Below are positions 43,448-62,694 of a DNA stretch of 64,000 nucleotides, piece after piece (position 1 is the stretch's first letter; every line of letters begins with the position of its first letter). Origin of the DNA: Polyangium sp. 15x6 (GTDB lineage Bacteria > Myxococcota_A > Polyangia > Polyangiales > Polyangiaceae); the NCBI RefSeq assembly GCF_029960785.1, contig NZ_JASBQE010000023.1, positions 1-64,000 on the forward strand, read 5' to 3'. The notes beneath the pieces were generated by a model. It ran no database searches. It saw nothing but the letters and a program-made list of their open reading frames with translations, and was not told the DNA's origin. Both the position numbers and the translations under genes were made by a program.

Positions 43448-43463
43448 CAGCCTGCTGACGGCC

Positions 43464-44973: not shown

Positions 44974-45035
44974 TTCTCAAACGTTTTACACTCGGCGCCG
45001 CGACGACGTTCCACCCCGTGTGCCGACCCTGACCC

Positions 45036-47183: not shown

Positions 47184-47199
47184 TTGTCCGCCGCGCGTT

Positions 47200-48114: not shown

Positions 48115-48123
48115 GTCGGACTT

Positions 48124-48516
48124 CTACCCCGCTTGCGGCGGGATGGCCAGGCAGGAGCCCTGGTTCAACATACGGTCGAGGGTCTCCGCGATCTCGCGCG
48201 CGGCCCGCGCTTGCCACGTGAGGTCCGTTGCAAGGCGAGGCATCAAAATGGCGCGACCCGCGCGCGGCGCGACCGTGAGCTGATAGGCCCCCGGCACCTC
48301 GATCACGTAGAGCGCGGGCCGCTCGCGGAGCTCCCCGCGAGACGCGAGCCAATCGCGAAAAGCCGTAGGAAATGGCTCCTTCGTCACGAGCTCGAACTGA
48401 TCACGCCGGATGCAGCCGTAACGCCGCGTCATCCGCACGCGGCCGACATCGATCACGTCGAGGATCTCCCCGTACGAAGCGGAGCTCCGCCGGTCCTCAG
48501 CGACCTCCACGTTCAT
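48124..48516 (-). CDS. Hypothetical protein in the V4R operon
   Basis: A 130-residue soluble protein. I recognise no family. It has a beta-rich middle (GRVRMTRRYGCIRRDQFELV, LYVIEVPGAYQLTVAPRAG) and a helical end. The ATG overlaps the stop of the upstream V4R gene (ATGA). It links the V4R genes with the PAS-STAS gene, so it probably belongs to the same signalling unit. Confidence 0.65.
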   Translation of the reverse strand: MNVEVAEDRRSSASYGEILDVIDVGRVRMTRRYGCIRRDQFELVTKEPFPTAFRDWLASRGELRERPALYVIEVPGAYQLTVAPRAGRAILMPRLATDLTWQARAAREIAETLDRMLNQGSCLAIPPQAG

Positions 48517-49166
48517 CCCTGCATTCGCTCCACGACGAACTCGCAGTGCGAATCGCCCTTCGCGGCGCAAAGATGCTCGCGCGAGCGGAAGGATCGCGGA
48601 TGGCTGAACACCTCGCGATAAAGGTCCTCGGTGAGCGCGGGCCTGCGCGTGATGTCGCCCTGGTAGACGAGGTTCATGAGCCCGGCCAGCCCGCCGTTCG
48701 CGAGGTAGCAACGTGGCCCGTCGGCCTGCGGATACGATTCGAGATACCCGCACGACTCGTAGCTGTCCCGCAGCTCGACGACGAGCCGCTCGCCGGGCAG
48801 GAGCTGCGCGACGCGAAAGCGGCCCCAGCCGAAGGCGTTCACGACCGCGATCATGCCGTGCACCCAGTCCTCGCGGCTCTCGATCATGGGCTGCACCAGC
48901 GCGTCCCACTCGACGGACTCCATGATGCCGCCGAACGTGTGGAACGCGCAGACGTGCGCGGCTTCCGTGAGGAGCGCGATCGCGTCCTCCGTGAGCTCGG
49001 GGTTTTCCCGAATGAGCGCGCCGAGGACGCCGAACGAGATGCGGTTGTAAAAATCCGCGTAATGGTTCGTCAGGTACAGACCGAAGGCCGGAATGAGGCC
49101 CTCCTCGTTGCCGGCGAGGCCCATGCCGGCGACGGTTTCGACGATGACGCGCTCGTCGATGGCCAT
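48513..49166 (-). CDS. V4R-domain protein
   Basis: A 217-residue protein with a C-terminal V4R (4-vinyl-reductase-like) small-molecule-binding domain. The diagnostic motif Cys-X3-Gly-Asp-X2-Cys is CAAKGDSHCEF near the end. The N-terminal part is helical (TEAAHVCAFHTFGGIMES). V4R domains sense hydrocarbons, tetrapyrroles or other ligands. The start overlaps the end of the second V4R gene in TGATG. Confidence 0.83.
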   Translation of the reverse strand: MAIDERVIVETVAGMGLAGNEEGLIPAFGLYLTNHYADFYNRISFGVLGALIRENPELTEDAIALLTEAAHVCAFHTFGGIMESVEWDALVQPMIESREDWVHGMIAVVNAFGWGRFRVAQLLPGERLVVELRDSYESCGYLESYPQADGPRCYLANGGLAGLMNLVYQGDITRRPALTEDLYREVFSHPRSFRSREHLCAAKGDSHCEFVVERMQG

Positions 49167-49684
49167 CACCACACCTCCACGCGGAAGGAGCACCGCTCGT
49201 CCCCGGCGGCGACGCATTCGGTCTCGCGGCTCGTGACGCGCTCGGGCGCGAGCCGATACGCGACCGCAACCGCGCCGGCGAGGAAACCCGCGACGAAGTA
49301 GCACCCCGGCGTGGGCCGTTTGCCCCAGCGCGAGACCCAGCCGACCGCATAATGCGAATGGTCGAGCGTCGCGAGGCCGCCGCCCACGCCGAGGCCGCTC
49401 ACGTCCATCCGGCCAAACCCTTGCGCCGCGAACGTGTCCGCCGCGCGCCGGAGCGCGTCCGCGGCCGAGCCGCTCCTCGCGTCGTTTTCGAGCCCTTGCA
49501 GCATCGATCGCGACGCCTCCATCCCCGCGGCCACGAGCAGCCCCGGGGCCCGCTCCTGCAGGGCGTCCTCGATCGTGCGCTGGAGGAAGACGTTGTAATG
49601 GTGACAGTGGAACACGAGCCGACGCCCGCCGAGCGTGGTGATGCCGCGCTCGAGGTCCGCCTTCGGAGCGAGGTGAAAGCTCAT
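49166..49684 (-). CDS. V4R-domain protein
   Basis: A 172-residue protein carrying the same C-terminal motif, CVAAGDERCSF. Its N-terminal part has a His pair in HCHHYNVF. It is directly upstream of the other V4R gene with one-base overlap and is itself preceded by a small gene overlapping by ATGA. Two V4R proteins in a row suggest a heteromeric ligand sensor that feeds the PAS-STAS protein downstream (inference). Confidence 0.83.
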   Translation of the reverse strand: MSFHLAPKADLERGITTLGGRRLVFHCHHYNVFLQRTIEDALQERAPGLLVAAGMEASRSMLQGLENDARSGSAADALRRAADTFAAQGFGRMDVSGLGVGGGLATLDHSHYAVGWVSRWGKRPTPGCYFVAGFLAGAVAVAYRLAPERVTSRETECVAAGDERCSFRVEVW

Positions 49685-49887
49685 CGTCTTGCCTTCCTTT
49701 CGTGTTCCAGGATCTCGCGCGCGCAAACCCACGCGCGCGCCACGAGCTCCGGGTCGTCCGGGATCGACTCCGCGTTGCGTGACAAGGCCCGCCCGACCAG
49801 CAAATTCAAGCGCGCCAGCTCCACCACGGCGGTGCCGCGGGCGCGCCCTCGGACGAACTCCACGACCTGCACGAGCTCCTTGCCCAC
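49681..49887 (-). CDS. Small protein, first gene of the V4R operon
   Basis: A 68-residue helical protein (ELVQVVEFVRGRARGTAVVELARLNLLVGR ... in several helices). The GTG at 49887 follows GGAGAC and a 7-base spacer. Its stop overlaps the V4R start by ATGA. It has no recognised family; a small adaptor is likely. Confidence 0.55.
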   Translation of the reverse strand: MGKELVQVVEFVRGRARGTAVVELARLNLLVGRALSRNAESIPDDPELVARAWVCAREILEHERKARR

Positions 49888-49907
49888 GCCATGTCTCCGT
49901 CTGCCGG

Positions 49908-50477
49908 CTAGAGCCGGCGCCAATCCTCGCCGTGGAAATCGGGGAACGATACCTTGCACGTGCCCGGATCGATCCCCGTGATCCGCGCCCTTCCATTCGC
50001 GTCGAGCATGCCCTCGCGTGTCGCCCCGTCCGAAAGCTCGACGCGGTAGCGCTTGAACGGCACGGGCTTCGGCGGATCGTCGTCGTCCACGAGCTCGATG
50101 CCGAACCAGGTTTTTTCCTCCCGTGCTGCGACCTTCTCGCCCGTGGGCTCCTCCTTGCGGCCCCCCGCCGCGAGGACGAACTGCATCTCCATCTTGAACG
50201 CGCGGAGCTCGCCGCTCTCGAGCGCCCGCCGGATCCGAGCCCGCTGCGCGGCGAACGACGCGCCCTCCCGCATACCGAGCGGTCCCGCGAGGAAGGCCGC
50301 GATGTCGGCGACGAGGGGGCGCATGCGGGGTTCGTCCGGGAACCATCCGTCGACGAGCCACGCCGCGAGGCCCCGGGCGACGGGCGACGCGTCCTCGGGC
50401 ACCACGCCGGCGCCGAGGCGCGGCACGATCCATACGACGTCCGAGAGCGTGCTGATGCGCCATTTCTTGCCGTGCAT
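49908..50477 (-). CDS. Hypothetical protein with small beta C-terminal domain
   Basis: A 189-residue protein. The C-terminal 45 residues (YRVELSDGATREGMLDANG, then ITGIDPGTCKVSFP) match a short beta-strand segment that is often found at the end of secreted or phage-tail/type VI related proteins (family memory, not checked). The N-terminal 110 residues are unassigned. The ATG at 50477 is used; a frame extension upstream looks non-coding. It lies 20 bases upstream of the V4R operon and may be part of it. Confidence 0.6.
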   Translation of the reverse strand: MHGKKWRISTLSDVVWIVPRLGAGVVPEDASPVARGLAAWLVDGWFPDEPRMRPLVADIAAFLAGPLGMREGASFAAQRARIRRALESGELRAFKMEMQFVLAAGGRKEEPTGEKVAAREEKTWFGIELVDDDDPPKPVPFKRYRVELSDGATREGMLDANGRARITGIDPGTCKVSFPDFHGEDWRRL

Positions 50478-50561
50478 GATGTCGCGCCTCTGCACCACGA
50501 GGATACGCGCTCGGGCAGGCGCTCGGCAAGACACCCGAAAAGCCGTTTCGTCCCCCTCTCC

Positions 50562-50578
50562 TCCGGGCAAAGCCCGGA
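50562..50578. other. Perfect hairpin in divergent gap
   Basis: TCCGGGC-AAA-GCCCGGA is a perfect stem-loop in the 186-base gap between the divergent genes at 50477 and 50664. No T-run follows on either strand. Role unknown. Confidence 0.45.
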
Positions 50579-50613
50579 CGATTCACCCCCGAGGGAGCTC
50601 GCTTCGTGATCTC

Positions 50614-50652
50614 CTTAGAACATCGTTCAGCTTGGCTGAACGATGTTCTAAG
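50614..50652. promoter_or_regulatory. Perfect 18-bp inverted repeat upstream of M20 peptidase
   Basis: CTTAGAACATCGTTCAGC, loop TTG, and the exact complement end 11 bases before the peptidase ATG. Each arm contains a smaller palindrome GAAC-N3-GTTC, which looks like a TetR-type box repeated twice. It could be an operator or an mRNA hairpin at the ribosome site. No TetR gene is near. Confidence 0.7.
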
Positions 50653-50663
50653 ATGCGCTCCCG

Positions 50664-52025
50664 ATGACATCCGTCTCCGCGCAGGATCCCTCCTCGAACA
50701 CGCCGGATCGTGAGCTCGGCGAGCACGCGTTCCGACTCTGCCAGACGCTCCTCCGCATCGACACCACGAACCCGCCGGGCCGCGAGCGCGCCGCCGCGGA
50801 GGTCGTGGCCGGCGAGCTCGCGGCCGCGGGGCTCGATCCGCTCACGCTCGAGAGCGCGCCCGAGCGCACGAACGTGGTCGCGCGCCTGCGCGGCACGGGC
50901 GAGCTGCCGCCGATCCTGCTCACGGCGCACCTCGATGTCGTCGAGGCCGAGGCCTCGGCATGGAAACACCCGCCGTTCTCGGGCGTCGTCGCGGACGGCT
51001 GCCTCTGGGGGCGCGGCGCGATCGACATGAAGAACATGGCCGCGATGTCGGTCGCGATCCTCGCGCGCCTCGCCCGGGAAAAGCCGCGCCTGCGCCGCGA
51101 CGTGATCTTCGCCGCCGTCGCGGACGAGGAGGCGGGCTGCGACCACGGCTCGCGTTTCCTCGTGGAGAACCACCCCGATCTCGTGCGCGCCGAGTACGCG
51201 ATCGGCGAGAGCGGCGGCTACACGCTGCATCTCGGCAAGGCCACGTTCTATCCGATCCAGGTCGCGGAGAAGGGCCTCTGCTGGGTGCGCGCGCGCGTGC
51301 GCGGCGAGCCCGGGCACGGCTCGATGCCCCGCGAGGACTCGGCCGTCATCAAGCTCGCGGACGCCATCGCGCGGCTCGAAAAACCGCTGCCCGTGCACGT
51401 CACGCCCTACGTCCGCGATTTCGTGGACGGCCTCGCCGCGAAGCAACCCGCGCCGCTGCGCGCCCTCCTGCGCCGGCTCCTCCACCCCGCGATCGCGCCG
51501 CACGTGCTGCGCGCGCTGCCCGATCGCATGATCGCGCGGAGCTTCGGCGCGATGCTCTCGAACACGGCGTCGCCGACGATCCTGCGCGCGGGCGCGAAGG
51601 TGAACGTGATCCCCGGCTTCGCGGAGGCCGAGATCGACGGGCGCACGCTGCCCGGACAAACCGAGGCCGATTTCCTTCGCGAGCTCGGCGCGGTGCTCGG
51701 GCCCGAGGTCTCGCTGGAGATCGTGAAGAGCGCGCCGCCCACCACGACCGACCCCGTCGATTCGCCGCTTTACGACACGATCCGCGCGGCGATCCTCGAG
51801 CGCGAGCCCGGTGCCACGGTCGTGCCCTACATGATCCCGGGCTTCACGGACGCGAAGTACTTCACGCAGCTCGGCGCGAAATGGTACGGGTTTTCCCCCG
51901 TGAAGATGCCGAAGGGCCTGCGCTTCGCCGAGCTCTTCCACGGCCACGACGAGCGCATCCCGGTCGACGGCTTGAAATGGGGGACCGAGGTCCTCTTCGA
52001 CGTCGTGCGCAGGTTTTGCCTGTAA
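50664..52025 (+). CDS. M20 family metallopeptidase (ArgE/DapE-like)
   Basis: A 453-residue zinc peptidase. Metal-site motifs are LTAHLDVV (His, Asp), GRGAIDMKNMAA (Asp), ADEEAGCDHG (catalytic Glu and metal Glu), and ELFHGHDERI near the end. The dimerisation domain insert is in the middle. It hydrolyses an acylated amino acid or small peptide; the exact substrate is unknown. It lies alone behind a striking inverted repeat and is convergent with a small gene. Confidence 0.92.
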   Translation: MTSVSAQDPSSNTPDRELGEHAFRLCQTLLRIDTTNPPGRERAAAEVVAGELAAAGLDPLTLESAPERTNVVARLRGTGELPPILLTAHLDVVEAEASAWKHPPFSGVVADGCLWGRGAIDMKNMAAMSVAILARLAREKPRLRRDVIFAAVADEEAGCDHGSRFLVENHPDLVRAEYAIGESGGYTLHLGKATFYPIQVAEKGLCWVRARVRGEPGHGSMPREDSAVIKLADAIARLEKPLPVHVTPYVRDFVDGLAAKQPAPLRALLRRLLHPAIAPHVLRALPDRMIARSFGAMLSNTASPTILRAGAKVNVIPGFAEAEIDGRTLPGQTEADFLRELGAVLGPEVSLEIVKSAPPTTTDPVDSPLYDTIRAAILEREPGATVVPYMIPGFTDAKYFTQLGAKWYGFSPVKMPKGLRFAELFHGHDERIPVDGLKWGTEVLFDVVRRFCL

Positions 52026-52028
52026 AAC

Positions 52029-52262
52029 TCAGGGCGAGACGAGCGCGTCCGGCCACCACGGCGCGGCCTCGGCCTCGCCGCGTTCGAGCGCGAGCGCCAC
52101 GTGCGGCAACGTGGCGCGGACGCGATCGCCGATCCGGTGCATGCCGAGCCCCTCGAACGGCCGCACGAGGAGCCTCGACGTCTCGAACGTCATGCAAGGG
52201 ATCTTGCCTCGCGTGAAATCGACTGTCGAGAAGGTCTTCCCGCGGCGGTCGTTCCGGTCCAT
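52029..52262 (-). CDS. Possible small protein
   Basis: A 77-residue frame that fills the gap between the peptidase stop (52025) and the next gene start (52286). GGAAAAGG precedes the ATG at 52262. The part from residue 24 (MTFETSRLLVRPFEGLG) looks more protein-like than the start; an internal ATG at 52193 is possible. No family recognised. It could also be an artefact of the high GC content. Confidence 0.35.
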   Translation of the reverse strand: MDRNDRRGKTFSTVDFTRGKIPCMTFETSRLLVRPFEGLGMHRIGDRVRATLPHVALALERGEAEAAPWWPDALVSP

Positions 52263-52285
52263 CCTTTTCCGGGGAGCGAGACACG

Positions 52286-53284
52286 ATGGCGGATGAGCTT
52301 TCGAGGCGGGGCGTGCTCAAGGTCGTGGCCGCGGCGGCGGCGGTCGCGGGTTGTAAAACCACGAGCAGCGGGACCACGGCAGGCGCAAGCGAGACGAGCG
52401 CGGCGCCGCCGGCCGCTGCATCACCGCCCGTCCCCGCGGCGCCGGCCTCCTCGGCTACGCGGACGCTCGGACGCACGGGCGCGCACGTCGAGGCGGTGTC
52501 GCTCGGCGGCGAGGGGATCTTGCGGACGTGGAACCGCGAGCGCGAGGCCGTGCCGATGATCCTCGAAGCCCTGCGGCTCGGCGTGCGGTATTGCGACACG
52601 GCGCCGGCCTACGCGGGCTCGCTCGATTATTACGGCGAGGCGTTCCGGCAAGCGCCCCCGGGGGCGCGGGATCAGGTTTTTCTCGCCTCGAAGACCCACG
52701 AGCGGAGCCGCGACGGGAGCCTGCGCCTGCTCGACGAGAGCCTGAAGCGGCTGGGGACCAGCCGCCTCGACCTCCTTCAGCTCCACGATCTGCGCACCCG
52801 CGAGGATCTCGACGAGATCTTCGGCAAGGGCGGCGCGATCCAGGCCGTCGAGGCGGCGCGGAAGGACGGCCGGATCCGGTTCGTGGGGATCACCGGGCAT
52901 CACGATCCGGCCATCCTGGTCGAGGCGATGCAGCGATACGATTTCGACACGGTGCTTTGCGCGGTGAACCCTGCCGATCCGGCACGGCTCCCGTTCCTTT
53001 CGACGGTCGTGCCCGAGGCGCGGAAGCGCGGAATGGGCGTGATTGGCATGAAGGTGATGGCCGCGGGGCGGATCCTCGCGGACGGCGCGGCCACGCCCGA
53101 GGAGCTCATCGGGTACGGCGCCCATTTCGCGGATACGGTGATCGTGGGCATGCGGAGCCCGGCCGAGGTGCGGCAGAATCTCGCGATTGGCCGCGCGCTC
53201 GCGCCGCCCTCGAAAGAGGTGCTCGCGGCGCTGGAGCGGAGGCTCGCGCCGCGGGCCGACGAATATTCTTATTTCAAGGCATGA
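52286..53284 (+). CDS. Aldo/keto reductase, Tat-type lipoprotein
   Basis: A 332-residue protein. The N-terminus has SRRGVLK, like a Tat twin-arginine signal, and a lipobox VAGC (Cys23). An Ala/Ser/Pro linker follows to about 60, then an aldo/keto reductase domain (TLGRTGAHVEAVSLGGEG, RYCDTAPAY for the catalytic Asp/Tyr region, DLLQLHDL). Export of such an enzyme as a lipoprotein is unusual for this family and would leave it without cytosolic NADPH. Its stop overlaps the Cys-rich lipoprotein start. Confidence 0.88.
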   Translation: MADELSRRGVLKVVAAAAAVAGCKTTSSGTTAGASETSAAPPAAASPPVPAAPASSATRTLGRTGAHVEAVSLGGEGILRTWNREREAVPMILEALRLGVRYCDTAPAYAGSLDYYGEAFRQAPPGARDQVFLASKTHERSRDGSLRLLDESLKRLGTSRLDLLQLHDLRTREDLDEIFGKGGAIQAVEAARKDGRIRFVGITGHHDPAILVEAMQRYDFDTVLCAVNPADPARLPFLSTVVPEARKRGMGVIGMKVMAAGRILADGAATPEELIGYGAHFADTVIVGMRSPAEVRQNLAIGRALAPPSKEVLAALERRLAPRADEYSYFKA

Positions 53285-54153
53285 GCATGACGCCGAGCTT
53301 CTTCCGTACCGCGCCCCTCGTCGCCCTCGGTTTGCTCGGCGGCTGTCAGGTCGTGCTCGGAATCGAATCGGAGCTGCACCTCGCGACCTGCGAGGATGGC
53401 GAGGTGTACAACACGACGCCCGCCGATTGCCGGCGCGAGGTCTGCAAGGACGGCGAGCTCGTGACCGAGCCGGATCCGGACGATGTCCGGAACGACGTGA
53501 ACGAATGCACGGAGGACGCGTGCGACGGCACGACGCCGGTGAACGCGCCGCGCGCCGCGGATTCGCCCTGCGGTCTCGATGGGCTCTTGCGTTGCGACGG
53601 CGCGGGCAAGTGCCAGGGCTGCGTGGACGATGCGTCGTGCCAGAGCGGACCCGCACAGCCGTGCGCGCCGATCACCTGCCAGCAAGGCATTTGCGTGACG
53701 AACATGGTGCCGCCCGGCACGCTCTTGCCCGATCCGGCCCCGGGCGATTGCATGGCGCCCGCGTGCGGCGCGAATGGCGTGGCCACGACGGTATTCGCGG
53801 CCGATCCGCCCACGCCCCCGTCGCCCTGCATCGCGACGGTGTGCATGGAGGGCATGGCGCAGAGCGGGTTTCGCAACCCCGGGACCGCCTGCTCCGGCGG
53901 GGTCTGCGACGGGAGCGGCAACTGCGTGGCGTGCCTGGAAAACGCCCATTGCGGCGGCGGGACGATGGTCTGCCTGGGCCAGGCCTGCGTGAACCATTGC
54001 ACGGACGGTCTGCAAAACCATGGCGAGACGTACCTGGATTGCGGCGGCGGCTGCCCCGGCTGCGGCATCGGCGCGCCGTGCATGGCCGCGTCCGACTGCG
54101 CCACGAACTACTGCATCGAGGGGATCTGCTGGGATCCGGGCTTCGGGGGCTGA
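53281..54153 (+). CDS. Cys-rich lipoprotein
   Basis: A 290-residue lipoprotein with Cys22 in LLGGC. The mature part has about 30 Cys in short spaced motifs (CDGAGKCQGC, CSGGVCDGSGNCVAC, CGGGCPGCGIGAPC), typical of myxobacterial secreted disulfide-rich proteins. The motif DGLQNHGETYLDCGG is also common in them. It overlaps the aldo/keto reductase by ATGA. Function unknown. Confidence 0.85.
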   Translation: MSMTPSFFRTAPLVALGLLGGCQVVLGIESELHLATCEDGEVYNTTPADCRREVCKDGELVTEPDPDDVRNDVNECTEDACDGTTPVNAPRAADSPCGLDGLLRCDGAGKCQGCVDDASCQSGPAQPCAPITCQQGICVTNMVPPGTLLPDPAPGDCMAPACGANGVATTVFAADPPTPPSPCIATVCMEGMAQSGFRNPGTACSGGVCDGSGNCVACLENAHCGGGTMVCLGQACVNHCTDGLQNHGETYLDCGGGCPGCGIGAPCMAASDCATNYCIEGICWDPGFGG

Positions 54154-54156
54154 GCC

Positions 54157-54528
54157 ATGCAATCCGGGCACATCCTCGTCCACGTCACGACACGCTCGGC
54201 CGAGGAGGCCGAGGCGCTCGGCGCCGCCGCCGTCGCGCGCAGGCTCGCCGCTTCGGCCCAGGTCGAGCCGATCACGACGAGCCATTACCGGTGGAAAGGC
54301 GCGATCCACGCCCACCCCGAGCACCGCGTGACGCTCTTCTCGCGCGCGGCGCTCTGGGATGCGATCGTCGCGTTCGTCCGTGCGAACCATTCCTACGAGC
54401 TGCCGCAGATCGTCGCGACGCCCATCACCATGGGCCTGCCGGAGTTCCTCTCCTGGATCGACGAGAACACGCGCGCGCTGGAGCAAGAGAGCGATGAGGT
54501 ACAAGAAGCTCGGGACGACCTCGATTGA
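54157..54528 (+). CDS. cutA: CutA-like divalent ion tolerance protein
   Basis: A 123-residue protein with the CutA pattern: ILVHVTTRSAEEAEALGAA at the start, TSHYRWKGAIH, and the signature NHSYELPQIVATPI. CutA is a ferredoxin-like trimer of unclear role linked to metal tolerance. It has a C-terminal acidic extension. It overlaps the following aldo/keto reductase by 35 bases. Confidence 0.88.
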   Translation: MQSGHILVHVTTRSAEEAEALGAAAVARRLAASAQVEPITTSHYRWKGAIHAHPEHRVTLFSRAALWDAIVAFVRANHSYELPQIVATPITMGLPEFLSWIDENTRALEQESDEVQEARDDLD

Positions 54529-55450
54529 GGTGAGCGCCGTCATTTTCGGCGGCTGGCAGGCGGGCAAGGAGTCGTGGGTCGGCATCGACGACGCCGCGCA
54601 GATCGCCGCGCACCGGGCGGCCCTCGACGCGGGCGTGACCACGTTCGACACGGCCGAGGAGTACGGAGCCGGGCACAGCGAGCGGATCCTCGCGAAGGCG
54701 CTCGCCGGCGAGCGCGAGCGGATCGTGATCTTGACGAAGGTGTCCTGGAACAACCTGCGTCGGGAGAAGGTGATCGAGGCGTGCGAGCGCTCGCTGAAAA
54801 ACCTCGCGACGGATCGGATCGATCTCTACCAGATTCACTGGCCCGCCGGGAGCTTCGGCAGCGAGGTGGTGCCGATCGAGGAGACGATGGGCGCGCTCGT
54901 GGATCTGAAGGCGCAGGGGAAGATCCGCGCGATCGGCGTATCGAACTTCGACCGACCGCAGCTCGAGGCCGCGAGCCGCGTGGGCCGGGTCGACAGCCTG
55001 CAGCCCTGCTATTCGCTGTTTTTTCGGAAGGCGGTGGAGGACACGCTCTCGTATTGTCAAAAGAACGAGATTTCGGTGCTCGCGTATTCGCCGCTCGCCC
55101 AGGGTCTGCTCACGGGCAAGTTCGGGCGCGGGCACGTGTTCGCCGAGGGCGACAACCGCGTCGACAACCGGCTCTTCAAGGGCGAGACGTTCGCAAAGGC
55201 GCTCGCGGGCCTCGACGAGCTCCGCCCGATCGCCGCGCGGAACGGCGTGCCCCTCACGAACCTCGCGCTCGCGTGGCTCATCGCGCAGGAAGGCGTGGGC
55301 GCGATTGTGGGCGCGAGGAACGAGGCGCAGGCGAGGGAGAATGCGCGCGCGGGGGATGTCACGCTCGGCGCGGCGGATCTCGCGGAGATCGACCGGATCG
55401 GGCGGGCAGTCTCGGATTCCCTGCCGCCCGGATTGATGTGGGACTGGTGA
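54494..55450 (+). CDS. Aldo/keto reductase (cytoplasmic)
   Basis: A 318-residue protein with the standard aldo/keto reductase barrel: TTSIEVSAVIFGGWQAG, DTAEEYGAGHSER (Tyr), the Lys in LTKVSW, IHWPAG (His), GVSNFDRPQ and the C-terminal GARNEAQAREN coenzyme segment. No signal peptide is seen, unlike its neighbour at 52286. It precedes the acyl carrier protein gene by 19 bases and might reduce an aldehyde in that pathway (inference). Confidence 0.9.
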   Translation: MRYKKLGTTSIEVSAVIFGGWQAGKESWVGIDDAAQIAAHRAALDAGVTTFDTAEEYGAGHSERILAKALAGERERIVILTKVSWNNLRREKVIEACERSLKNLATDRIDLYQIHWPAGSFGSEVVPIEETMGALVDLKAQGKIRAIGVSNFDRPQLEAASRVGRVDSLQPCYSLFFRKAVEDTLSYCQKNEISVLAYSPLAQGLLTGKFGRGHVFAEGDNRVDNRLFKGETFAKALAGLDELRPIAARNGVPLTNLALAWLIAQEGVGAIVGARNEAQARENARAGDVTLGAADLAEIDRIGRAVSDSLPPGLMWDW

Positions 55451-55469
55451 TCGCGTAGGATCGCGCGCG

Positions 55470-55889
55470 ATGTCCGAAGCCGCCTCGCCCCCCGTCTCCG
55501 ATCCCGAGATCGCCGCGCAGGTCCGCCAGATCGTCGCCGAGGCGCTCGCCCTCGATCCGGCCGCGGTGAAGAACGAGTCGCTCCTGATGGCCGATCTCGG
55601 CGCCGAGTCGCTCGATTACCTCGACATCGTGTTCAAGATCGAGCGGACGTTCGGCATCCAGATCACGCGGGGCGAGATGCAAAAGGCCGCGCGCGGCGAC
55701 ATGAGCGAGGAGGAGTTCGCGCCGGGCGGCGTCGTCAGCGACAAGGGCCTCGAACGGCTGCGCGAGCTGATGCCGGAGGCGAAGGACCGCATCGTCCCGG
55801 GGCTACGGCCCGTGCAGATCCTGGGGCTGTTCTCCGTGCAGACGTTCGTGAACATGGTGGAAGCGAAGAAGCGGGGCGTGGTGGTCTGA
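55470..55889 (+). CDS. Acyl carrier protein with long C-terminal extension
   Basis: A 139-residue ACP. LMADLGAESLDYLDIVFKIE places the phosphopantetheine Ser at 47. About 60 residues beyond the usual ACP end (from MSEEEFAPGG to the C-terminus) are a distinct extension. It is the only ACP in the window and therefore the likely carrier of the KS/CLF cluster. It is convergent with the SDR gene, with 13 bases between stops. Confidence 0.92.
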   Translation: MSEAASPPVSDPEIAAQVRQIVAEALALDPAAVKNESLLMADLGAESLDYLDIVFKIERTFGIQITRGEMQKAARGDMSEEEFAPGGVVSDKGLERLRELMPEAKDRIVPGLRPVQILGLFSVQTFVNMVEAKKRGVVV

Positions 55890-55902: not shown

Positions 55903-56646
55903 TCAAAGCCCGCCGTCGATCACCACCTGCCCGCCCGTCATGAACGAGTTCTCGTCCGAGACGAGCCACGCCGCGAGGTCCGCGACCTCCTCCACCGTGC
56001 CGAGCCTGCCGAGCGCCGCTTGCGCCACGTAACTCTCGACGCGGTGCTTCGGCAATCGTGCCGACAAACCTGTCTCGAGCAGGCCCGGCACGAGGCAATT
56101 CACCGCGATTCCGTACCGGCCGACCTCCTTCGCGAGCGCCAGCGAAAACCCGACGAGCGCCGCCTTCGAGGCCGCGTAGTGGACCGGCGCGTCGAGGACG
56201 CGGTCCGCGCCGAACGAGCCCACGTTCAGGATGTGGCCTTTTTTGGCCCGGATCATCGATTTCAACGCCGCGCGCGAGAACAGATACGGGCCCTTCACGT
56301 TCGTATCCATCGCCGCGTCCCACTCCGCCTCCTCCAGCAGCGCGATCGGGAGGACCTGCGTGAGCGCCGCGTTGTTCACGAGCACGTCGATGCCGCCGTA
56401 CGCCGTCTCCACCGCCTTCACCGCGGCCGTCACGTGCGCGGCGTCCGAGACCGAGCCCTTGAGCACGAGCGGCGAGGCGCCCGCGGCTTCGAGCAGCGCC
56501 CGCGTCTCCTCGGCCGCGTCGTCGCGCTCGCGGTACGTGAACGCCACGCGCGCCCCTTCCCGCGCGAAAGCGAGCGCAATCGCGCGGCCGAGATTTCTCG
56601 AGCCGCCCGTCACGAGGCAACGTTTTCCCGAAAGGCGCGCGCTCAT
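55903..56646 (-). CDS. SDR/FabG-like reductase, partner of second radical SAM
   Basis: A 247-residue SDR with GGSRNLG, NNAALTQ, NVGSFGA and the Tyr-X3-Lys HYAASK. It matches the SDR at 34255 in length, order (directly after a radical SAM gene) and four-base overlap. The two differ in side chains around the active site (APVHYCTAKAAIKG versus APVHYAASKAALVG). It is most likely a 3-oxoacyl reductase or dehydrogenase on a modified chain. Confidence 0.9.
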   Translation of the reverse strand: MSARLSGKRCLVTGGSRNLGRAIALAFAREGARVAFTYRERDDAAEETRALLEAAGASPLVLKGSVSDAAHVTAAVKAVETAYGGIDVLVNNAALTQVLPIALLEEAEWDAAMDTNVKGPYLFSRAALKSMIRAKKGHILNVGSFGADRVLDAPVHYAASKAALVGFSLALAKEVGRYGIAVNCLVPGLLETGLSARLPKHRVESYVAQAALGRLGTVEEVADLAAWLVSDENSFMTGGQVVIDGGL

Positions 56647-58118
56647 CGGGTCCTCCCGCGGCCGAGCTGCACGAGCGGCGTCGCGGGACGCGGGGAAAAA
56701 CGCGCGTCGCGCTCGCGGTAGAGGACGTTGTAGGCGCAGGAGGGGACGTTCGAGCCGTCGGGGCCGGGCATGCCGACGCAGCAGCGGCGAATGCGATCCG
56801 TGTCGAAGGTCTCCTCGTCCATGTGGGTGTGCACGTAAATGGCCTTCGTGTGCATCTCGGCGATCCGCATGCGAATGGCCTCGTCCGTGCCCGGCGCGAA
56901 CATGCGCTCGACGAGGTCCTTCAAGGCGGCGAGCACCGCGTCGGCTTCCTCGCATTCGATGTCGCCCGCCCAGAGGCGATTCAACACGTCCGCGAGGATC
57001 TGCTCCATTTCGGGGCCGGGCACGATGTAGAGCTCCTGCGAGAGGAGGCTGCGCAGGTCGTCGCGGCTCATGAAGCGGGTGAACGGGAGCCAGCGGCCGT
57101 CCTTCAAGCGCAAGAGATAGGCAATCTGGTAACAGAGCGGGTGCGCGAGCGGAGACGGGACGAAATCGCGGACCGCGATCCGGCCGCCCGATTGGCGCTC
57201 GATGTCGGAGAGCGCGTCGAACGCGGTGTAGCGCGCGCTGCGCTCGAAGCTCGCGCCGCTCTGGCCCGTGAACGTCATGGGATGGAACTCGACGGAGCGG
57301 ATGAAATCCTTCGAGAGCGCGAGGTCGATGAAAGCCGCGACCTCATGGTCGTTCACGCCACGCGCGAGCACGGGCAGGAGCGTCGTGGCCACCGCGTGTT
57401 TTTCCAGGAGATCGAGGATCTTGAGCTTGGCGTTCAGGTGGTGGCCGCCGAGCATCTTCTTGTTCGCCTCGGGCTCGAAGGAGTCGAACGAGAGAATGAC
57501 GCGGGCGTCGATGCGGGCGAGGCGCTCGAGCAGCGCCTCGTCGCGGAGGAAACGCAGGCCGTGCGTGGAGACGGTGACGCGCCGGACGCCGGCCGAGACG
57601 CACATCTCGACGAGGCGCTCGAATTCAGGGTGCTGCGTGGGTTCGCCGCCGGTGATGTTGATGATACGGCGGTCGGGCGCGACGTGGTCGAGGTGCCGCA
57701 GGATCGCCGCGAGCTCCCCCTCGGACATGTGGTAGGCGCCCTCGTTCTTGTTGTGCGTGTAGCAGATGGGGCAATCGAGGTCGCATTTCGAGGTGATCGG
57801 GACGACCGGGAGGTGATTGCGTTGCTCGTGCTGCTCGCAAGGGCCGCAATCGTAAGGGCAGCCGGCGGAGATGGGGCGCGGCGAGGCGGGGCGTTCGAGG
57901 ACGGAGGCGTGCCGGACGGTGTCCTCGTACCAGTCCGCGGAGCTCGAGACGAGCACCTCCTCGGGGCCGTGCAGCTCGCAGCGCTTGCGCAGGACGATCT
58001 TGCCGGAGGCGCGCACGGTCTCGGCCGGGACCGTGCGCTTGCACGTCCCGCAGAGGCCCATCGTGGCGCCGAGGATCACGCCTTCGTCCGTTACGTCCGC
58101 CATTGCCACTTCAGCCAT
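56643..58118 (-). CDS. Tes/MJ0619-like radical SAM enzyme (second copy)
   Basis: A 491-residue relative of the enzyme at 34995. One N-terminal Cys-rich segment (Cys23/26, Cys47) replaces the longer one, then Cys87/91/94 (AGCPYDCGPCEQH) and radical SAM Cys112, 116, 119. GGEPTQHP and the C-terminal RRCC and PSCAYNVLYR motifs are shared. ATG at 58118 is used; ATG at 58103 is an alternative. It overlaps a membrane-protein gene upstream and an SDR downstream. Confidence 0.87.
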   Translation of the reverse strand: MAEVAMADVTDEGVILGATMGLCGTCKRTVPAETVRASGKIVLRKRCELHGPEEVLVSSSADWYEDTVRHASVLERPASPRPISAGCPYDCGPCEQHEQRNHLPVVPITSKCDLDCPICYTHNKNEGAYHMSEGELAAILRHLDHVAPDRRIINITGGEPTQHPEFERLVEMCVSAGVRRVTVSTHGLRFLRDEALLERLARIDARVILSFDSFEPEANKKMLGGHHLNAKLKILDLLEKHAVATTLLPVLARGVNDHEVAAFIDLALSKDFIRSVEFHPMTFTGQSGASFERSARYTAFDALSDIERQSGGRIAVRDFVPSPLAHPLCYQIAYLLRLKDGRWLPFTRFMSRDDLRSLLSQELYIVPGPEMEQILADVLNRLWAGDIECEEADAVLAALKDLVERMFAPGTDEAIRMRIAEMHTKAIYVHTHMDEETFDTDRIRRCCVGMPGPDGSNVPSCAYNVLYRERDARFSPRPATPLVQLGRGRTR

Positions 58119-58636
58119 TTTCGTACCGCGAAGTCGGTCGCGTGGATGAGAAAAAACCCGAAGACGAGGTTCGTCACCCACGTGGCCCAGAGGGCCGGGG
58201 TGTAGCGCGCGACGGGCGGGAACGGCCGGTGCGCGAGGTTCACGTTGAGCGTGGGCGGCGTCGTGTAATAGGCGAGCACGACCATCGCGGAGAGGAAGGC
58301 GAACGAGACCCACGGAGCCCAGCGCGGCAGGCCCGAGCGGCGGACCTCGAGCGCGCCGACGACGAGCGGCGCGACGTGCACGAGGACCGAGGTCCAGGTG
58401 GTCGTGCGGGTCTCGCAGAGGCCGAAGAGGTACCCCCAGAGGCCGGCGCCGATATGGAAGGAAAAACCAAAGAGGACGAGCGCGGGCTTCTGGAGGAGCA
58501 CGCCGACGGCGAGGACGGCCGTCGCCACGTGGCAGGCGTAGAGCATCTCGGGCAGGAGCCCGTTCGGCATTTTCTCGATGACCGCGTGGAGCACGAGGAC
58601 GACGAAGAGCAGGAGCCCGACCCAGCGCGGCGTCAC
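58091..58636 (-). CDS. Polytopic membrane protein in acyl cluster
   Basis: A 181-residue protein with about five or six membrane helices and few soluble parts. A GTG start overlaps the upstream SDR stop (GTGA), and the end overlaps the radical SAM start. It has scattered His and Tyr residues, with no known motif. Membrane location suggests that the radical SAM product is handled in or moved through the membrane (inference). Confidence 0.75.
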   Translation of the reverse strand: MTPRWVGLLLFVVLVLHAVIEKMPNGLLPEMLYACHVATAVLAVGVLLQKPALVLFGFSFHIGAGLWGYLFGLCETRTTTWTSVLVHVAPLVVGALEVRRSGLPRWAPWVSFAFLSAMVVLAYYTTPPTLNVNLAHRPFPPVARYTPALWATWVTNLVFGFFLIHATDFAVRKWLKWQWRT

Positions 58637-59346
58637 AGGCCCCCCGTGATGGGCAAGACGGAGCCGGTCATCCAGCGATTGTGGAGCGCGAGGCGGGTGA
58701 TGGCGCGCGCCGCCTCGACGGGCGTGCCGACGCGCTGGAGCGCGCTGTACCGCTTGTAATCGGCGAGGCGCGCCGGATCGAGGCTCTCCGAGATGCCGCC
58801 GCCGAGCGCGCCGAGGAGGACGAGGTTCACCCGGACGTCCTTCGGGCCGAGCTCCTTGGCGAGGGCCTGCGTCATGCCGAGCCGCGCTCCCTCGGTCGCG
58901 GCGAAATGCACGGCGGAGGGGATCTTCGCGATGCCGTCGAGCGCCGCCGTGAGGACCACGTCCCCGGGCCTCCCCGCGAGCCGCGCCGCGAACGATTGCA
59001 TGGCGACGTAGACGGAGCGGACGTTGACCGCGTGCATCTCGTCCCAGAGCGCGTCGGTGACGTCCGCGAGCGCGCCCGCGTCGGAGACGACGGCGGCGTG
59101 TACGAGCAGATCGGGCGCGGCGTTTTCGGCGTCGAGCGCGTCGAAGAGGGCGCGGATCGCGGCGGGTTCGGCGAGGTTCGTCCGGAAGGATCGCGCGCCG
59201 GTCTCGGCGGCGAGGGCTTCTGCGACGGCAGCGCCTCGCTGGTACGTGAATGCGACCCGCGCTCCCGCGGCCGCGAGCGCGCGCACGACCTCGCGGCCCA
59301 CGTATCCGCTGCCCCCGAGCACGAGCGCGCGCCGGACGTCGGTCAC
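58633..59346 (-). CDS. SDR-fold protein with altered catalytic residues
   Basis: A 237-residue SDR. The Rossmann motif GGSGYVG and the C-terminal GSVLPITGGL are present. The usual Tyr-X3-Lys is Phe-X3-Glu (VHFAATEGARL), and the Ser region reads VLTAALDG. It is thus probably not an ordinary keto-reductase; a non-catalytic partner or another mechanism is possible. It overlaps both flanking membrane-protein genes by four bases. Confidence 0.8.
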   Translation of the reverse strand: MTDVRRALVLGGSGYVGREVVRALAAAGARVAFTYQRGAAVAEALAAETGARSFRTNLAEPAAIRALFDALDAENAAPDLLVHAAVVSDAGALADVTDALWDEMHAVNVRSVYVAMQSFAARLAGRPGDVVLTAALDGIAKIPSAVHFAATEGARLGMTQALAKELGPKDVRVNLVLLGALGGGISESLDPARLADYKRYSALQRVGTPVEAARAITRLALHNRWMTGSVLPITGGL

Positions 59347-60440
59347 GAGGCAGACTCCAGGCCGAGTTCGAATCGCAACGTTTGATCCTCGCGCACGTGC
59401 CAGATCTTTTGATCGATGTAGTAATGGTGGAAGAAAATGCCCCAGTAAATCACGAGAAAGAGATCGGGGAGCGCGGCGCCGCGCGAGACGGGTGCGAGGC
59501 TCGGGAGGACGCCGCGCGCCGCGTTGAGCGCGAGGTATCCGAGCGAGACGAGGACGAACGCGGCATACGCCGCGAGCGGGCGGCGGCCGAACCGGGCCAC
59601 GAGCGAGCGCGCGTCGTTGCCCTCGAAGCGGCGCCGGGAGACGGCCGCCACGATGCCGAGGTAATTCACGCCGTGCACGATTCCCCCGACGACCGTGGAC
59701 GCCATGAACGCCTGCTCGGGGTCCTCGGGGCGCGGGACGAGAGGCTCGAAGGAGCCGACGACGAACAGCGCAAAGAGCGGGAGGCCGAGCGCGGGGCCGA
59801 GCAAATACAGGAGGGGACGTTCGTCCTCGTCGCGGAAGCGGGTTCGTCGGTAAATGCCATACGCGATCGTCGCGACGAGGAGCAGGCCGAGGAGAGCGAG
59901 CCCGAGGAGAGCGAGGAAGCGCGGTGGATCCGCGGGCAAGCCGAGGAAGATACGATTCTGCGGGTGGCCGAACGAGAAGAGGCCAAAGGCGAGCCAGAGG
60001 GCGCCGTGCAAGAAGAGGCGATCGGTCTTGCGTGCTGGGAGCGCGGTGCGCGCGTGGTGCTGGTAGATGGCGAGGACGCCGTACGATTGCCGGACGGCAT
60101 GGTGAAAACTCCAGAGCGCCGCGACGAGGAGGAAAAGATCCATCGGCGCGCGCAGGCCCATGACGCGCGTGAGAGTCCACGCGGCGAGGCCGGGCAGGAG
60201 AAAGGCGAGGCTCCCGGCGAGCAGGCGGCCGCGGCGCGCGCGGAAGCCCGGGTCGAGGTAGGTGCGGGTCCAGGTGGCCGCGAGGTGCGGGCCGTCGACG
60301 AGGACGAGGAAGGCCACGAAGAGGGGCACGACCGCCCGCGGGACGGCGAGCGCGAAGGCCCCGACGAGCGCGGCGAGGAGCGCGCTGCCGAAGAAAAACG
60401 CGAGGTCGAAGCGGCGACCCCCGATCCATCCGGCCTTCAC
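59343..60440 (-). CDS. Polytopic membrane protein with His motifs
   Basis: A 365-residue protein with about eight to ten membrane helices. His clusters occur at helix ends (DGPHLAATWTRTY, SFHHAVRQSYG, YQHHARTA, FFHHYYIDQKIWH), reminiscent of membrane di-iron hydroxylases/desaturases, although the spacing does not match a known family. It heads the second acyl operon and its stop overlaps the SDR start. A metal-dependent lipid modification is plausible. Confidence 0.75.
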   Translation of the reverse strand: MKAGWIGGRRFDLAFFFGSALLAALVGAFALAVPRAVVPLFVAFLVLVDGPHLAATWTRTYLDPGFRARRGRLLAGSLAFLLPGLAAWTLTRVMGLRAPMDLFLLVAALWSFHHAVRQSYGVLAIYQHHARTALPARKTDRLFLHGALWLAFGLFSFGHPQNRIFLGLPADPPRFLALLGLALLGLLLVATIAYGIYRRTRFRDEDERPLLYLLGPALGLPLFALFVVGSFEPLVPRPEDPEQAFMASTVVGGIVHGVNYLGIVAAVSRRRFEGNDARSLVARFGRRPLAAYAAFVLVSLGYLALNAARGVLPSLAPVSRGAALPDLFLVIYWGIFFHHYYIDQKIWHVREDQTLRFELGLESAS

Positions 60441-60832: not shown

Positions 60833-61519
60833 TCACGGGACCATTCTACCATGCCGCAAGCGGAGGACGCGCGGGAACGAGGCGAGGAGGTCCGTGTCGT
60901 GCGTGCAGACGACGACGGCTGCGCCTCGGGCGTTCGCGCGACGCAAGAGCGAGACGACGGACGCGGCGCTGGCCTCGTCGAGGTTCGCCGTGGGCTCGTC
61001 GGCGAGCACGACGGCCGGGTCGTTGACGAGCGCGCGGGCGATGGCGACGCGCTGCATTTCGCCGCCCGAGAGGCGCGTGACGTCGTGCCGCGTGCGCGCT
61101 TCGAGGCCAAGCTCGGCGAGGAGCGCCTCGGCCCGCGCGAGGGCCCGGCCGTGATGGCCATGGAGCTTCCAGTGCGGGAGCGCGACGTTGTGGCGCACGT
61201 CGAGCGCCGGCAAGAGGTGAAAGGTCTGGAAGACGAGGCCAATGCCTTCGAGGCGCGCGCGGGCGCGCTCGCGGCTGCTCATGCGCCGGACGCTCTTGCC
61301 GCGCATCGTGATCTCGCCCGAAACATCCGCGTCGAGCAGGCCGAGGATGGCGAGCAGGGTGCTCTTGCCCGAGCCGCTCGGGCCGGCGATGGCGGCGAGC
61401 TCGCCCTCGGCGAGCGTGAACGAGACGTCGTCGAGGGCCCGGACATCGAGGGCCGGCGTGCGGAAGGACCGCGTGACCGAGGCGAGCTCGTAGAGCACGG
61501 GCGCATTCGCCAAGGTCAT
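60833..61519 (-). CDS. ABC transporter ATP-binding protein (LolD/MacB-like)
   Basis: A 228-residue ATPase: Walker A GPSGSGKST, LSGGEMQRVAIARAL signature, Walker B VVLADEPT and a His-loop CTHDTD. It belongs to the LolD/MacB group (VRALDDVSFTLAEGE, FQTFHLLPALDVRHNV). The ATG overlaps the permease stop. Its own stop lies 38 bases from the minisatellite. Confidence 0.93.
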   Translation of the reverse strand: MTLANAPVLYELASVTRSFRTPALDVRALDDVSFTLAEGELAAIAGPSGSGKSTLLAILGLLDADVSGEITMRGKSVRRMSSRERARARLEGIGLVFQTFHLLPALDVRHNVALPHWKLHGHHGRALARAEALLAELGLEARTRHDVTRLSGGEMQRVAIARALVNDPAVVLADEPTANLDEASAASVVSLLRRANARGAAVVVCTHDTDLLASFPRVLRLRHGRMVP

Positions 61520-62694
61520 TCCCTCCGGAGCTCGACGGCAGGCTCGGCGCGCGAGGCGAGGATGGCCGGGACGATGCCCGCGAGGAGCGTCGTAGCAAAG
61601 AGGACGAGGGCCGGGATCAAAAACGAGCGGAGCGTGATGCTCGGGAGGACGACGAACCCGGCGTGGGAGAAAATGGGGTTGTCCTGGAAATACCGACAGA
61701 GGGCGTAACCGAGGCCGCTGCCGAGGACGGTGCCAATCCCGCCGACGAGCAGGGCCTCGAAGAGGTGAATGAGAAAAATTTCGCGCCGTCTGAAGCCGAG
61801 CGCGGCGATGGTGGCGATGCGGCGGCGCTCGTGGAGGACGTGGATGTAGAGCAGCGCGAGGACGGGGATCATGACCGCGACGACGACCATCGTGGTCGAA
61901 ATGGCGGCGAGGGCGCGGTTGCCGTCGATGGCGTTCTTGACGAACGTCTGGGCCTCCCACCAGGTCTCGACTTTCTGCTCGGGGGCGAGCTCGGCGATGC
62001 GCTTCGCCCATTCGCCGGCGCGGGCGTCGTCCGTCGAGAAGACGCGGATCTCGCTGGAGACGCCCGGCTTGCCGAAGAGGTCGCGCAGGGCGCCGATGGG
62101 GACGAAGAGCTCGTAATCGGCGCGGAAGCCGCCCGAGCCACGGAGGACGCCGACGACGCGGAAGACGGCGGAGACCGTTCGAACGTCCTCGCCGACCGAA
62201 AAAGGCAAGGCGACCTTGATCGAGGAGCCGACGCGCGCGTCGAGCTGCTCGGCGAGCTTGGCGCCGACGACCGCGGGCCGCTCGTCGCCCGCGACCATGC
62301 ACCGGCCCTCCGCGAGCTCCTGGCCAAATCCGGCGGCGCGATCTTCCGCGACGGGATCGATGCCGGCGATGCTCGCGGAGGTCGTGCGTTCGCCGTGGAA
62401 GAAAGAGCCCACGTGGACGAGCCGGATCGTGGCGGCGCGGACGAAGGGCTCCGCGGTGATCCGCGCGGCGAGGGCCTCGGCGCCTTCGAACGTGCCGCCG
62501 GACCTCGCCGTGACGCGGACGTGGCCCGTGTCGCGCGAGAGTCCCTTTTCGCGGAGCTCCGCGGTGTAGCCTTCGATGTTGGCGGTGTTCGGGATCTGGA
62601 AGCCGAGCCCGGCCGTCACCGCAGCGAGCAAGAGGACGAACGAGATCCGGCTGCGGACGAGCGTGCGAAAGGCGAGGTAGAAGAGGATCCTCAC
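61516..62694 (-). CDS. ABC transporter permease (LolC/MacB-FtsX-like)
   Basis: A 392-residue permease with an N-terminal helix, a large periplasmic domain at about 40-250 and three C-terminal helices with the FtsX-like signature (LHERRRIATIAALGFRRREI). It moves lipoproteins or other envelope substrates with the ATPase. A GTG start overlaps the stop of the MYXO-CTERM gene (GTGA). Confidence 0.9.
   Translation of the reverse strand: MRILFYLAFRTLVRSRISFVLLLAAVTAGLGFQIPNTANIEGYTAELREKGLSRDTGHVRVTARSGGTFEGAEALAARITAEPFVRAATIRLVHVGSFFHGERTTSASIAGIDPVAEDRAAGFGQELAEGRCMVAGDERPAVVGAKLAEQLDARVGSSIKVALPFSVGEDVRTVSAVFRVVGVLRGSGGFRADYELFVPIGALRDLFGKPGVSSEIRVFSTDDARAGEWAKRIAELAPEQKVETWWEAQTFVKNAIDGNRALAAISTTMVVVAVMIPVLALLYIHVLHERRRIATIAALGFRRREIFLIHLFEALLVGGIGTVLGSGLGYALCRYFQDNPIFSHAGFVVLPSITLRSFLIPALVLFATTLLAGIVPAILASRAEPAVELRRE

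Follow-up and report, generated by a model that had tools for sequence, protein, structure and literature searches.

Two loci of the soil bacterium Polyangium sp. 15x6, about 12 kb apart, each encode a radical SAM enzyme related to archaeal tetraether synthase (Tes), directly followed by an SDR. Are these two loci parts of one pathway, and if so, what does it produce? We analyzed both in a 64-kb stretch of DNA (the window) and refer to the locus at 34–43 kb, comprising rSAM1-SDR1 and the ketosynthase (KS) operon, as half A and to the locus at 55–63 kb, comprising rSAM2 and its neighbors, as half B. All features are listed in Table 1. A preliminary description of this DNA had proposed a split cluster with a duplicated radical SAM-SDR module, in which the second copy is accompanied by a long ACP, an SDR-fold protein and two membrane proteins. 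These genes are indeed all present beside rSAM2-SDR2, and the shared ATGA as well as the SDR length of 247 aa recur in rSAM1-SDR1. The range of 56643–60440 given for this group omits SDR2 and ACP, although the accompanying text counted both, and the 556-aa reading frame of rSAM2 starting at 58313 is too long, as homologs start near the ATG at 58118, from which the gene shares 28 nt with the membrane gene upstream of it. The ACP gene, which had been assigned to half B, does adjoin it, but lies on the opposite strand and convergent with SDR2, and is therefore not part of the same operon. Within this operon, the consecutive overlaps are GTGA, GTGA, 28 nt and ATGA.

Table 1. Features of halves A and B in the 64-kb window of Polyangium sp. 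15x6.
Feature	Position	Strand	Characteristics
SDR1	34255..34998	(-)	247 aa, FabG-like, S-Y-K intact
rSAM1	34995..36716	(-)	Tes-class radical SAM; additional Cys-rich ribbon at N-terminus
FabZ-like 3-hydroxyacyl-ACP dehydratase	36758..37261	(+)	
KS1	37231..38463	(+)	ketosynthase, Cys-His-His present
KS2	38460..39569	(+)	chain-length-factor-like, without active-site Cys
KS3	39566..40846	(+)	ketosynthase, Cys-His-His present
KS4	40843..42033	(+)	chain-length-factor-like, without active-site Cys
FabG-like ketoreductase	42030..42785	(+)	
Nitroreductase-family flavoprotein	42782..43447	(+)	final gene of the KS operon in this genome
12-kb intervening stretch	43448..55469		between nitroreductase and ACP
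ACP	55470..55889	(+)	139 aa, C-terminal extension; Pfam PP-binding 1.6e-7
SDR2	55903..56646	(-)	247 aa, FabG-like, S-Y-K intact; ATGA overlap with rSAM2
rSAM2	56643..58118	(-)	491 aa, Tes-class; Pfam Radical_SAM 2e-24 and Zn_ribbon_HMPTM
mem181	58091..58636	(-)	polytopic membrane protein
SDR3	58633..59346	(-)	degenerate SDR; GTGA overlaps on both flanks
mem365	59343..60440	(-)	polytopic membrane protein
ABC transporter ATPase and permease	60833..62694	(-)	

The intervening stretch encodes response regulators, a histidine kinase, STAS/PAS and V4R proteins, an M20 peptidase and an aldo-keto reductase; comparison of domains and synteny found no link to a lipid pathway among these genes. The matching stretch of another Polyangium genome, G298, measures ~7.6 kb. 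On the far side of half B lie the ABC transporter genes; three other Polyangium genomes have them overlapping mem365, but in two others they were not found beside it, so the transporter is an optional component of the locus. Elsewhere in the genome, we identified a third piece on contig C229 (rSAM3-SDR-aminotransferase-SDR, the last being SDR3') and a fourth, C66, with the aminotransferase AT455 and the SPASM radical SAM gene rSAM4.

In every cluster examined, KS1 and KS3 carry Cys-His-His, the Cys is missing from KS2 and KS4, and each two-KS cluster thereby contains two pairs of a KS and a Cys-less chain-length factor (CLF). Their PDB matches are FabF-type and actinorhodin KS/CLF proteins, which do not separate the subfamily. 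By gene content and motifs, the Polyangium set is comparable to highly reducing type II PKSs: both have a KS with Cys-His-His, a Cys-less CLF and discrete KR, DH and dedicated ACP (here FabG, FabZ and the ACP 12 kb away). Unlike these systems, it has two KS/CLF pairs and an extended ACP, and it further includes a nitroreductase-family flavoprotein, Tes-class radical SAM enzymes and class III aminotransferases. The ACP had been said to occur only with half B, and a genome-wide search agrees: it is the sole ACP of its type, and the next-best match is a FAS-type ACP (E 4e-5). In relatives, it adjoins the nitroreductase within the KS operon.

Of the remaining proteins of half B, SDR3 retains an SDR fold, but all three catalytic residues are exchanged (S->A, Y->F, K->E). 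The gene for mem181 is found in the clusters of most relatives, and its product shows conserved Cys34, His86 and NxN (130/132), whereas mem365 is characterized by invariant or near-invariant His residues at positions 52, 113, 114, 256, 338 and 339. Profile searches with both membrane proteins returned no Pfam or NCBIfam family and no PDB match. A resemblance of mem181 to TMEM164/YwaF is conceivable, but we make no claim of it.

The two radical SAM-SDR pairs resemble each other in both partners, with 34% identity between rSAM1 and rSAM2 (E 1e-90) and 50% between SDR1 and SDR2 (E 5e-88), and judged by these alignments they are homologous and not a product of chance. The proposed duplicated module holds only to this extent; a recent duplication of the block is contradicted by the radical SAM and SDR trees and by partner switching. 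According to the tree, rSAM1, rSAM2 and rSAM3 are ancient paralogs that diverged before the pathway spread between phyla, and they differ at an active-site position, that of Tyr459 in Tes. SDR2 comes after rSAM3 or rSAM4 in most genomes compared, and the rSAM2-SDR2 pair was seen in Polyangium and the MAG SJ525 only.

Archaeal tetraether synthase (7tol/7tom) is the only high-significance PDB match for rSAM1 (E 5e-62) and rSAM2 (E 7e-57 for 7tol). Both align with Tes (GDGT-MAS, MJ0619) over its full length and share with it the radical SAM core and a C-terminal Cys-rich domain. The RS motif CX3CX2C is present in every aligned radical SAM protein of the pathway, and all rows except one retain the N-terminal [4Fe-4S] ligands CX3CX2C plus His (CCCH), equivalent to C73-C77-C80-H83 of Tes. 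The rubredoxin ligands C-X2-C-X20-C-X2-H (C9-C12-C33-H36 in Tes) are matched by CCCH in rSAM2 and rSAM3, whereas rSAM1 of two-KS clusters has CCCC, with Cys for His36, and differs further from Tes by its additional N-terminal ribbon. The position of Met439, a labile ligand of the C-terminal cluster in Tes, is His in all pathway members; that of Tyr459 is Tyr only in rSAM1, Met in rSAM2 (I/V elsewhere) and Asn in rSAM3. Both residues are fully conserved in archaeal Tes, and MJ0619 variants M439A, Y459F and Y459L retain activity (PMC9433317). Since M439A is still active, the exchange of Met439 for His does not exclude a Tes-like function.

Given this similarity, half B could simply encode a bacterial tetraether synthase, in which rSAM2 joins the chain ends of ordinary membrane lipids to yield membrane-spanning (brGDGT-like or diabolic acid) lipids, while the KS half acts independently. 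Homology to Tes/GDGT-MAS with conserved Fe-S motifs and rubredoxin fits this explanation, as does the position of rSAM2 next to flippase and PLC genes in Massilia and its occasional occurrence without KS genes; moreover, a role in brGDGT synthesis has been proposed for bacterial Tes homologs (PMC8941075, PMC11868695). We nevertheless regard it as unlikely, because rSAM2 is closely tied to a dedicated KS/CLF/ACP system and aminotransferases, three radical SAM paralogs with different active-site residues co-occur, and the scores of rSAM2 and rSAM1 against the NCBIfam Tes equivalog NF045702 (235 and 264 bits) stay well under the 450-bit cut-off. Genomic context also differs, with a KS/ACP cluster around the pathway enzymes instead of archaeal lipid genes. 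This matters beyond Polyangium: surveys count bacterial Tes homologs as possible brGDGT producers, which bears on climate proxies (PMC8941075, PMC11868695), and the function of many of these homologs is unproven. For the group described here, a different substrate is predicted because these enzymes are housed in a dedicated KS/ACP pathway with aminotransferases. Radical SAM-dependent coupling of fatty acyl chains is known from bacteria, as cited in PMC11868695. The related bacterial systems are the membrane-spanning lipid synthase Mss and the ether lipid genes Ger and Elb; the enzymes of the window match Tes, and a scan of the cluster genes identified neither Ger nor Elb.

Together, the four pieces probably represent a dispersed locus for an unusual amino-lipid, part of which lies in the window. 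Gene identities and motifs, the common ancestry of the halves, the dispersion over four loci and the distribution are established by the analysis; we infer the step order, the chemistry of each radical SAM enzyme and the lipid product as follows. Two KS/CLF pairs together with FabZ, FabG and the dedicated long ACP would synthesize a reduced acyl chain, as highly reducing type II PKSs do; an ACP-bound acyl or polyketide is the likely substrate of the pathway. On this chain, rSAM1, rSAM2 and rSAM3 (C229) would activate unactivated C-H positions and, by analogy with tetraether synthase, the Tes-class enzymes could create C-C bonds, either inside a single chain or linking two chains. That at least one of them does so we consider an even bet. 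SDR1 and SDR2 would reduce keto groups, the class III aminotransferases (C229, C66) would add amino groups, and rSAM4 (C66) could contribute one further modification, with SDR3 as a putative partner without catalysis. mem181, mem365 and the adjacent transporter/flippase genes would then complete and export the lipid, for which the amino-lipid assignment is slightly favored. No described pathway combining a type II PKS and a Tes-like radical SAM enzyme was found in the open-access literature. Two known products were set aside: prodigiosin, because the PigE-like aminotransferase reaches 428 bits against a cut-off of 850, and cispentacin, with 69–196 bits against the 325-bit AmcF cut-off.

Speculatively, and we think quite improbably, the product could be a two-headed, membrane-spanning amino-lipid: a Tes-class enzyme would join the ends of the two chains that the KS/CLF pairs make, and an SDR and an aminotransferase would convert each head to an amino-alcohol. 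If true, this would give bola-type lipids a genetic basis in bacteria; such lipids are comparable to the leucettamols, which derive from sponges and for which a participation of symbiotic microbes is not known (PMC11767167).

A ring-containing fatty acid, ladderane-like or otherwise carbocyclic, would result if the Tes-class enzymes cyclized a polyene made by the KS/CLF pairs. Polyene-forming type II PKSs use a KS/CLF/FabG/FabZ/ACP set, and such a set is present here. The FASII clusters of anammox bacteria and Desulfotalea, which likewise combine multiple divergent FabF-type KSs with radical SAM genes, have been proposed to synthesize ladderanes or polyunsaturated hydrocarbons (PMC2649909). 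However, the published description of the anammox clusters highlights a B12-binding radical SAM gene and a phytoene-desaturase-like oxidase gene, neither of which was found among the scanned pathway proteins; the pathway instead has genes for Tes-class radical SAM enzymes, SDRs and aminotransferases. As aminotransferases are foreign to the ladderane system, a carbocyclic product also appears improbable.

The amino-lipid pathway proposed above presupposes that halves A and B belong together. Massilia and several Myxococcota carry the genes of both halves in a single ~20-kb cluster in which the nitroreductase is directly followed by ACP. A 30-kb region of Massilia rubra (5318–24944) shows the order rSAM2, PLC, flippase / mem181-SDR3-AT432-SDR2-rSAM4-AT455-mem365-ACP-nitro-FabG-KS4-KS3-KS2-KS1-FabZ / rSAM1-SDR1. 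The cluster of the MAGs RYN365 and G057 is the same except that rSAM3 replaces rSAM4 and a PPTase is added, and in TYHY the genes are mostly contiguous. SJ525 is intermediate: its halves are ~10 kb apart, ACP is in the KS operon, and half B keeps both aminotransferases and rSAM4. In Polyangium, the 12-kb insertion falls precisely at the junction of nitroreductase and ACP, with orientation unchanged. The proposed split of a formerly contiguous cluster is thus borne out by Massilia, RYN365 and G057, but the Polyangium pathway is in four pieces rather than two, which together equal the Massilia gene set; rSAM4 is found in six of six Polyangium genomes. A biosynthetic cluster can break into four loci and yet persist, as in all six Polyangium species examined, and cluster-mining tools would miss the connection because the genes are so scattered. 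Cultured hosts of the pathway are Polyangium, Massilia and Sorangium.

The suggested co-occurrence check was performed on 317 genomes of the class: 14 contain both halves and 299 neither (Fisher p 1.1e-20). Genomes with a single half, which the preliminary description had named as a ground for refutation, do exist, three with rSAM2 but not KS4 and one with KS4 but not rSAM2. One of the former, G056, retains rSAM1, and the two that lack KS and rSAM1 are MAGs with rSAM2 on contigs of 10.0 and 4.8 kb, which leaves them indecisive. That the halves are independent pathways and chance neighbors with convergent radical SAM-SDR pairs, as the 12-kb gap with unrelated genes, the restriction of rSAM2-SDR2 to Polyangium and SJ525 and the few single-half genomes might suggest, is very improbable and largely ruled out by synteny, considering the contiguous clusters in unrelated bacteria, the strong co-occurrence and a KS half without any other ACP of its type. 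By gene order and distribution, the two halves very probably constitute one pathway that was pulled apart.

Some observations weigh against the proposed pathway, among them the low Tes equivalog scores of rSAM1 and rSAM2 and the two genomes in which rSAM2 occurs without KS or rSAM1. In Polyangium G295, a deletion of ~318 bp takes away the last part of rSAM2 together with the first part of SDR2, whereas half A is complete. Half B may thus be dispensable in this strain, or the assembly may be at fault. Even in Massilia, rSAM2 is located apart from the KS operon, and it may therefore act in a later or separate step.

Gene calling in the window, which belongs to a 13.4-Mb genome whose closest relatives are Polyangium, bore out the genes previously described for the second half (half B) of the pathway: a radical SAM gene joined to an SDR by an ATGA overlap, an ACP, an SDR-fold protein and two membrane proteins. 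The genes of the span 56643-60440 stood but the range itself did not, since SDR2 and the ACP fall outside it, and the 556-aa ORF for rSAM2 is ~65 residues too long. Successive overlaps of GTGA, GTGA, 28 nt and ATGA suggest that mem365, SDR3, mem181, rSAM2 and SDR2 form a single, putatively translationally coupled unit. In the first half (half A), SDR1 and rSAM1 overlap by ATGA just as rSAM2/SDR2 do, and FabZ, KS1, KS2, KS3, KS4, FabG and a nitroreductase follow.

Features of the two halves and of the insert next to mem365 (window positions)
Feature	Position	Strand	Remark
rSAM1	34995-36716		
nitroreductase	ends 43447	plus	
ACP	55470-55889	plus	139 aa; 13 nt from SDR2 end
SDR2	55903-56646	minus	
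rSAM2	56643-58118	minus	
mem181	58091-58636	minus	
SDR3	58633-59346	minus	
mem365	59343-60440	minus	
insert region	60441-60832		insert of ∼363 bp at mem365 start
tandem array	60520-60797		21-bp unit, ∼13 copies, inside the insert

The insert is absent from Polyangium y55x31, 6x1 and G295, where the stop of an ABC ATPase gene overlaps the mem365 start, and the 21-bp unit does not occur elsewhere in the window genome.

A genome scan for relatives, which found 45, upheld the proposal of a cluster split by ∼12 kb. Genes of these genomes were called by a codon-usage script, which may skip small genes or misplace their starts. A single ∼20-kb cluster contains the genes of both halves in Massilia rubra, M. 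atriviolacea and the MAGs RYN365 and G057; in MAG TYHY most of them lie together, and in SorMAG the KS operon adjoins rSAM1-SDR1 at one end and ACP-rSAM3-SDR at the other end. The ACP directly follows the nitroreductase in most of these joined clusters. Both genes are on the same strand in the window, so that the 12 kb between them, occupied by unrelated genes, interrupt the KS operon at this point. The displaced ACP is common to the Polyangium loci L001-L003 and genomes G295 and G298 (nitroreductase-ACP gap of ∼7.6 kb in G298), and rSAM2 lies ∼11-16 kb from KS4 in all six Polyangium genomes. MAG SJ525 (G085), which belongs to a different family, has an intermediate arrangement: its halves are ∼10 kb apart, the ACP is within the KS operon, and half B retains two aminotransferases and rSAM4, a SPASM radical SAM. 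In Polyangium G295, a ∼318-bp deletion (L088 7320-7323) takes away about 55 residues from the end of rSAM2 and ∼52 from the start of SDR2, with half A intact; this may reflect either decay of half B in the species or an assembly error.

The halves also co-occur, as had been anticipated. Among 317 genomes of the class, rSAM2 (orthologs at ≥58% identity) is present in 17 and KS4 in 15, with both in 14 (Fisher p 1.1e-20, which overstates the evidence as the genomes are related). Genomes with one half only, named beforehand as evidence against a split cluster, were seen (three with rSAM2 only, one with KS4 only). The rSAM2-only genomes are MAGs or highly fragmented, and one of them, G056, still contains rSAM1; the contigs that bear rSAM2 in G086 and G316 are 10.0 and 4.8 kb long. 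G139, 80% complete, has KS4 and rSAM1, and rSAM2 was not found there. Because related genomes are not independent, betaproteobacterial contiguity is a stronger argument for one pathway than the p-value.

Further pieces are found elsewhere in the window genome: rSAM3-SDR-class III aminotransferase-SDR3' on contig C229 and an aminotransferase overlapping rSAM4 on contig C66. All six Polyangium genomes contain rSAM4, adjoined by an aminotransferase in the three inspected. In the two-contig assembly of G295, the rSAM3 and rSAM4 pieces are 7 Mb and ∼5.8 Mb from the window-like region. By gene content, the four loci of the window genome together cover the enzyme set of the Massilia cluster.

The radical SAM-SDR pair had been regarded as a duplicated module. 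Equal lengths and overlaps are not in themselves a sign of a copied block. In the SDR tree, SDR1 and SDR2 group with each other and apart from FabG and SDR3. In the rSAM tree, whose root is uncertain (outgroup MJ0619 on a long branch), rSAM1 types stand apart from rSAM2 and rSAM3, each a supported group, and rSAM1-like and rSAM2-like genes are neighbours in Sorangium, a planctomycete and an elusimicrobium, in each case within a one-KS cluster. Together these observations indicate that the rSAM duplication is old. The partner of the SDR2-type gene varies: in most genomes this gene comes after rSAM3, Massilia has it behind rSAM4, and an rSAM2 partner is confined to Polyangium and SJ525. A simpler version of the pathway, with one KS pair, occurs in Sorangium, Planctomycetota, Elusimicrobia and others (L072, L073, L087, L021/L023/L045); in most of these the rSAM2-like and rSAM1-like genes are next to each other.

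KS1 and KS3 carry Cys-His-His and the Cys is missing from KS2 and KS4 in all clusters, a pattern that makes KS1-KS4 two KS/chain-length factor (CLF) pairs. S-Y-K is present in SDR1, SDR2 and FabG. In every two-KS cluster SDR3 has lost this triad, the catalytic Ser and Lys being absent, but Sorangium So ce26 and G164 retain it in their one-KS clusters; SDR3 may have become non-catalytic while the pathway grew.

We infer the chemistry, order of steps and product as follows. The two KS/CLF pairs, FabG and FabZ would build a chain on the ACP, three Tes-class enzymes would modify it at unactivated carbons, SDRs would reduce it and class III aminotransferases would aminate it. The chain may be saturated or a polyene; as a guess, enoyl reduction may fall to the nitroreductase-family flavoprotein. 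Relatives' loci contain genes for membrane proteins and, named from sequence, flippase-like, phospholipase C-like and acyltransferase or sterol-desaturase-like proteins, which point to a membrane lipid as the likely product. Highly reducing type II PKSs are closest in working, here joined to Tes-type radical chemistry. We found no description of such a pathway in the open-access literature.

The sole highly significant PDB match of rSAM1 and rSAM2 is the archaeal tetraether synthase (Tes), bacterial homologs of which have been proposed, without proof, as brGDGT enzymes (PMC8941075, PMC11868695). Both score well under the Tes equivalog cut-off, and rSAM2 also lacks two conserved Tes residues, placing it outside tetraether synthase. 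Alignment of 80-odd relatives with the 7TOL sequence revealed the radical SAM cysteines in all and, nearly always, both the CCCH of the N-cluster and the rubredoxin ligands, with the rubredoxin His replaced by Cys in rSAM1 of two-KS clusters. Met439 is His in all pathway members. Tyr459 is preserved in rSAM1; at this position rSAM2 has Met, Ile or Val, and rSAM3 has Asn. These substitutions mark separate enzyme types and are compatible with C-C coupling, since the archaeal variants M439A, Y459F and Y459L are still active (PMC9433317). Within its N-terminal ∼85 residues, rSAM1 in the window carries an additional Cys-rich ribbon (C-X2-C-X20-C-X2-C) upstream of the usual rubredoxin-like domain, and this ribbon is conserved across genera in rSAM1 of two-KS clusters. 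Beside the one-KS cluster of G164 lies a third, divergent Tes-like radical SAM (L087 5519) with Met at 439 and His at 459.
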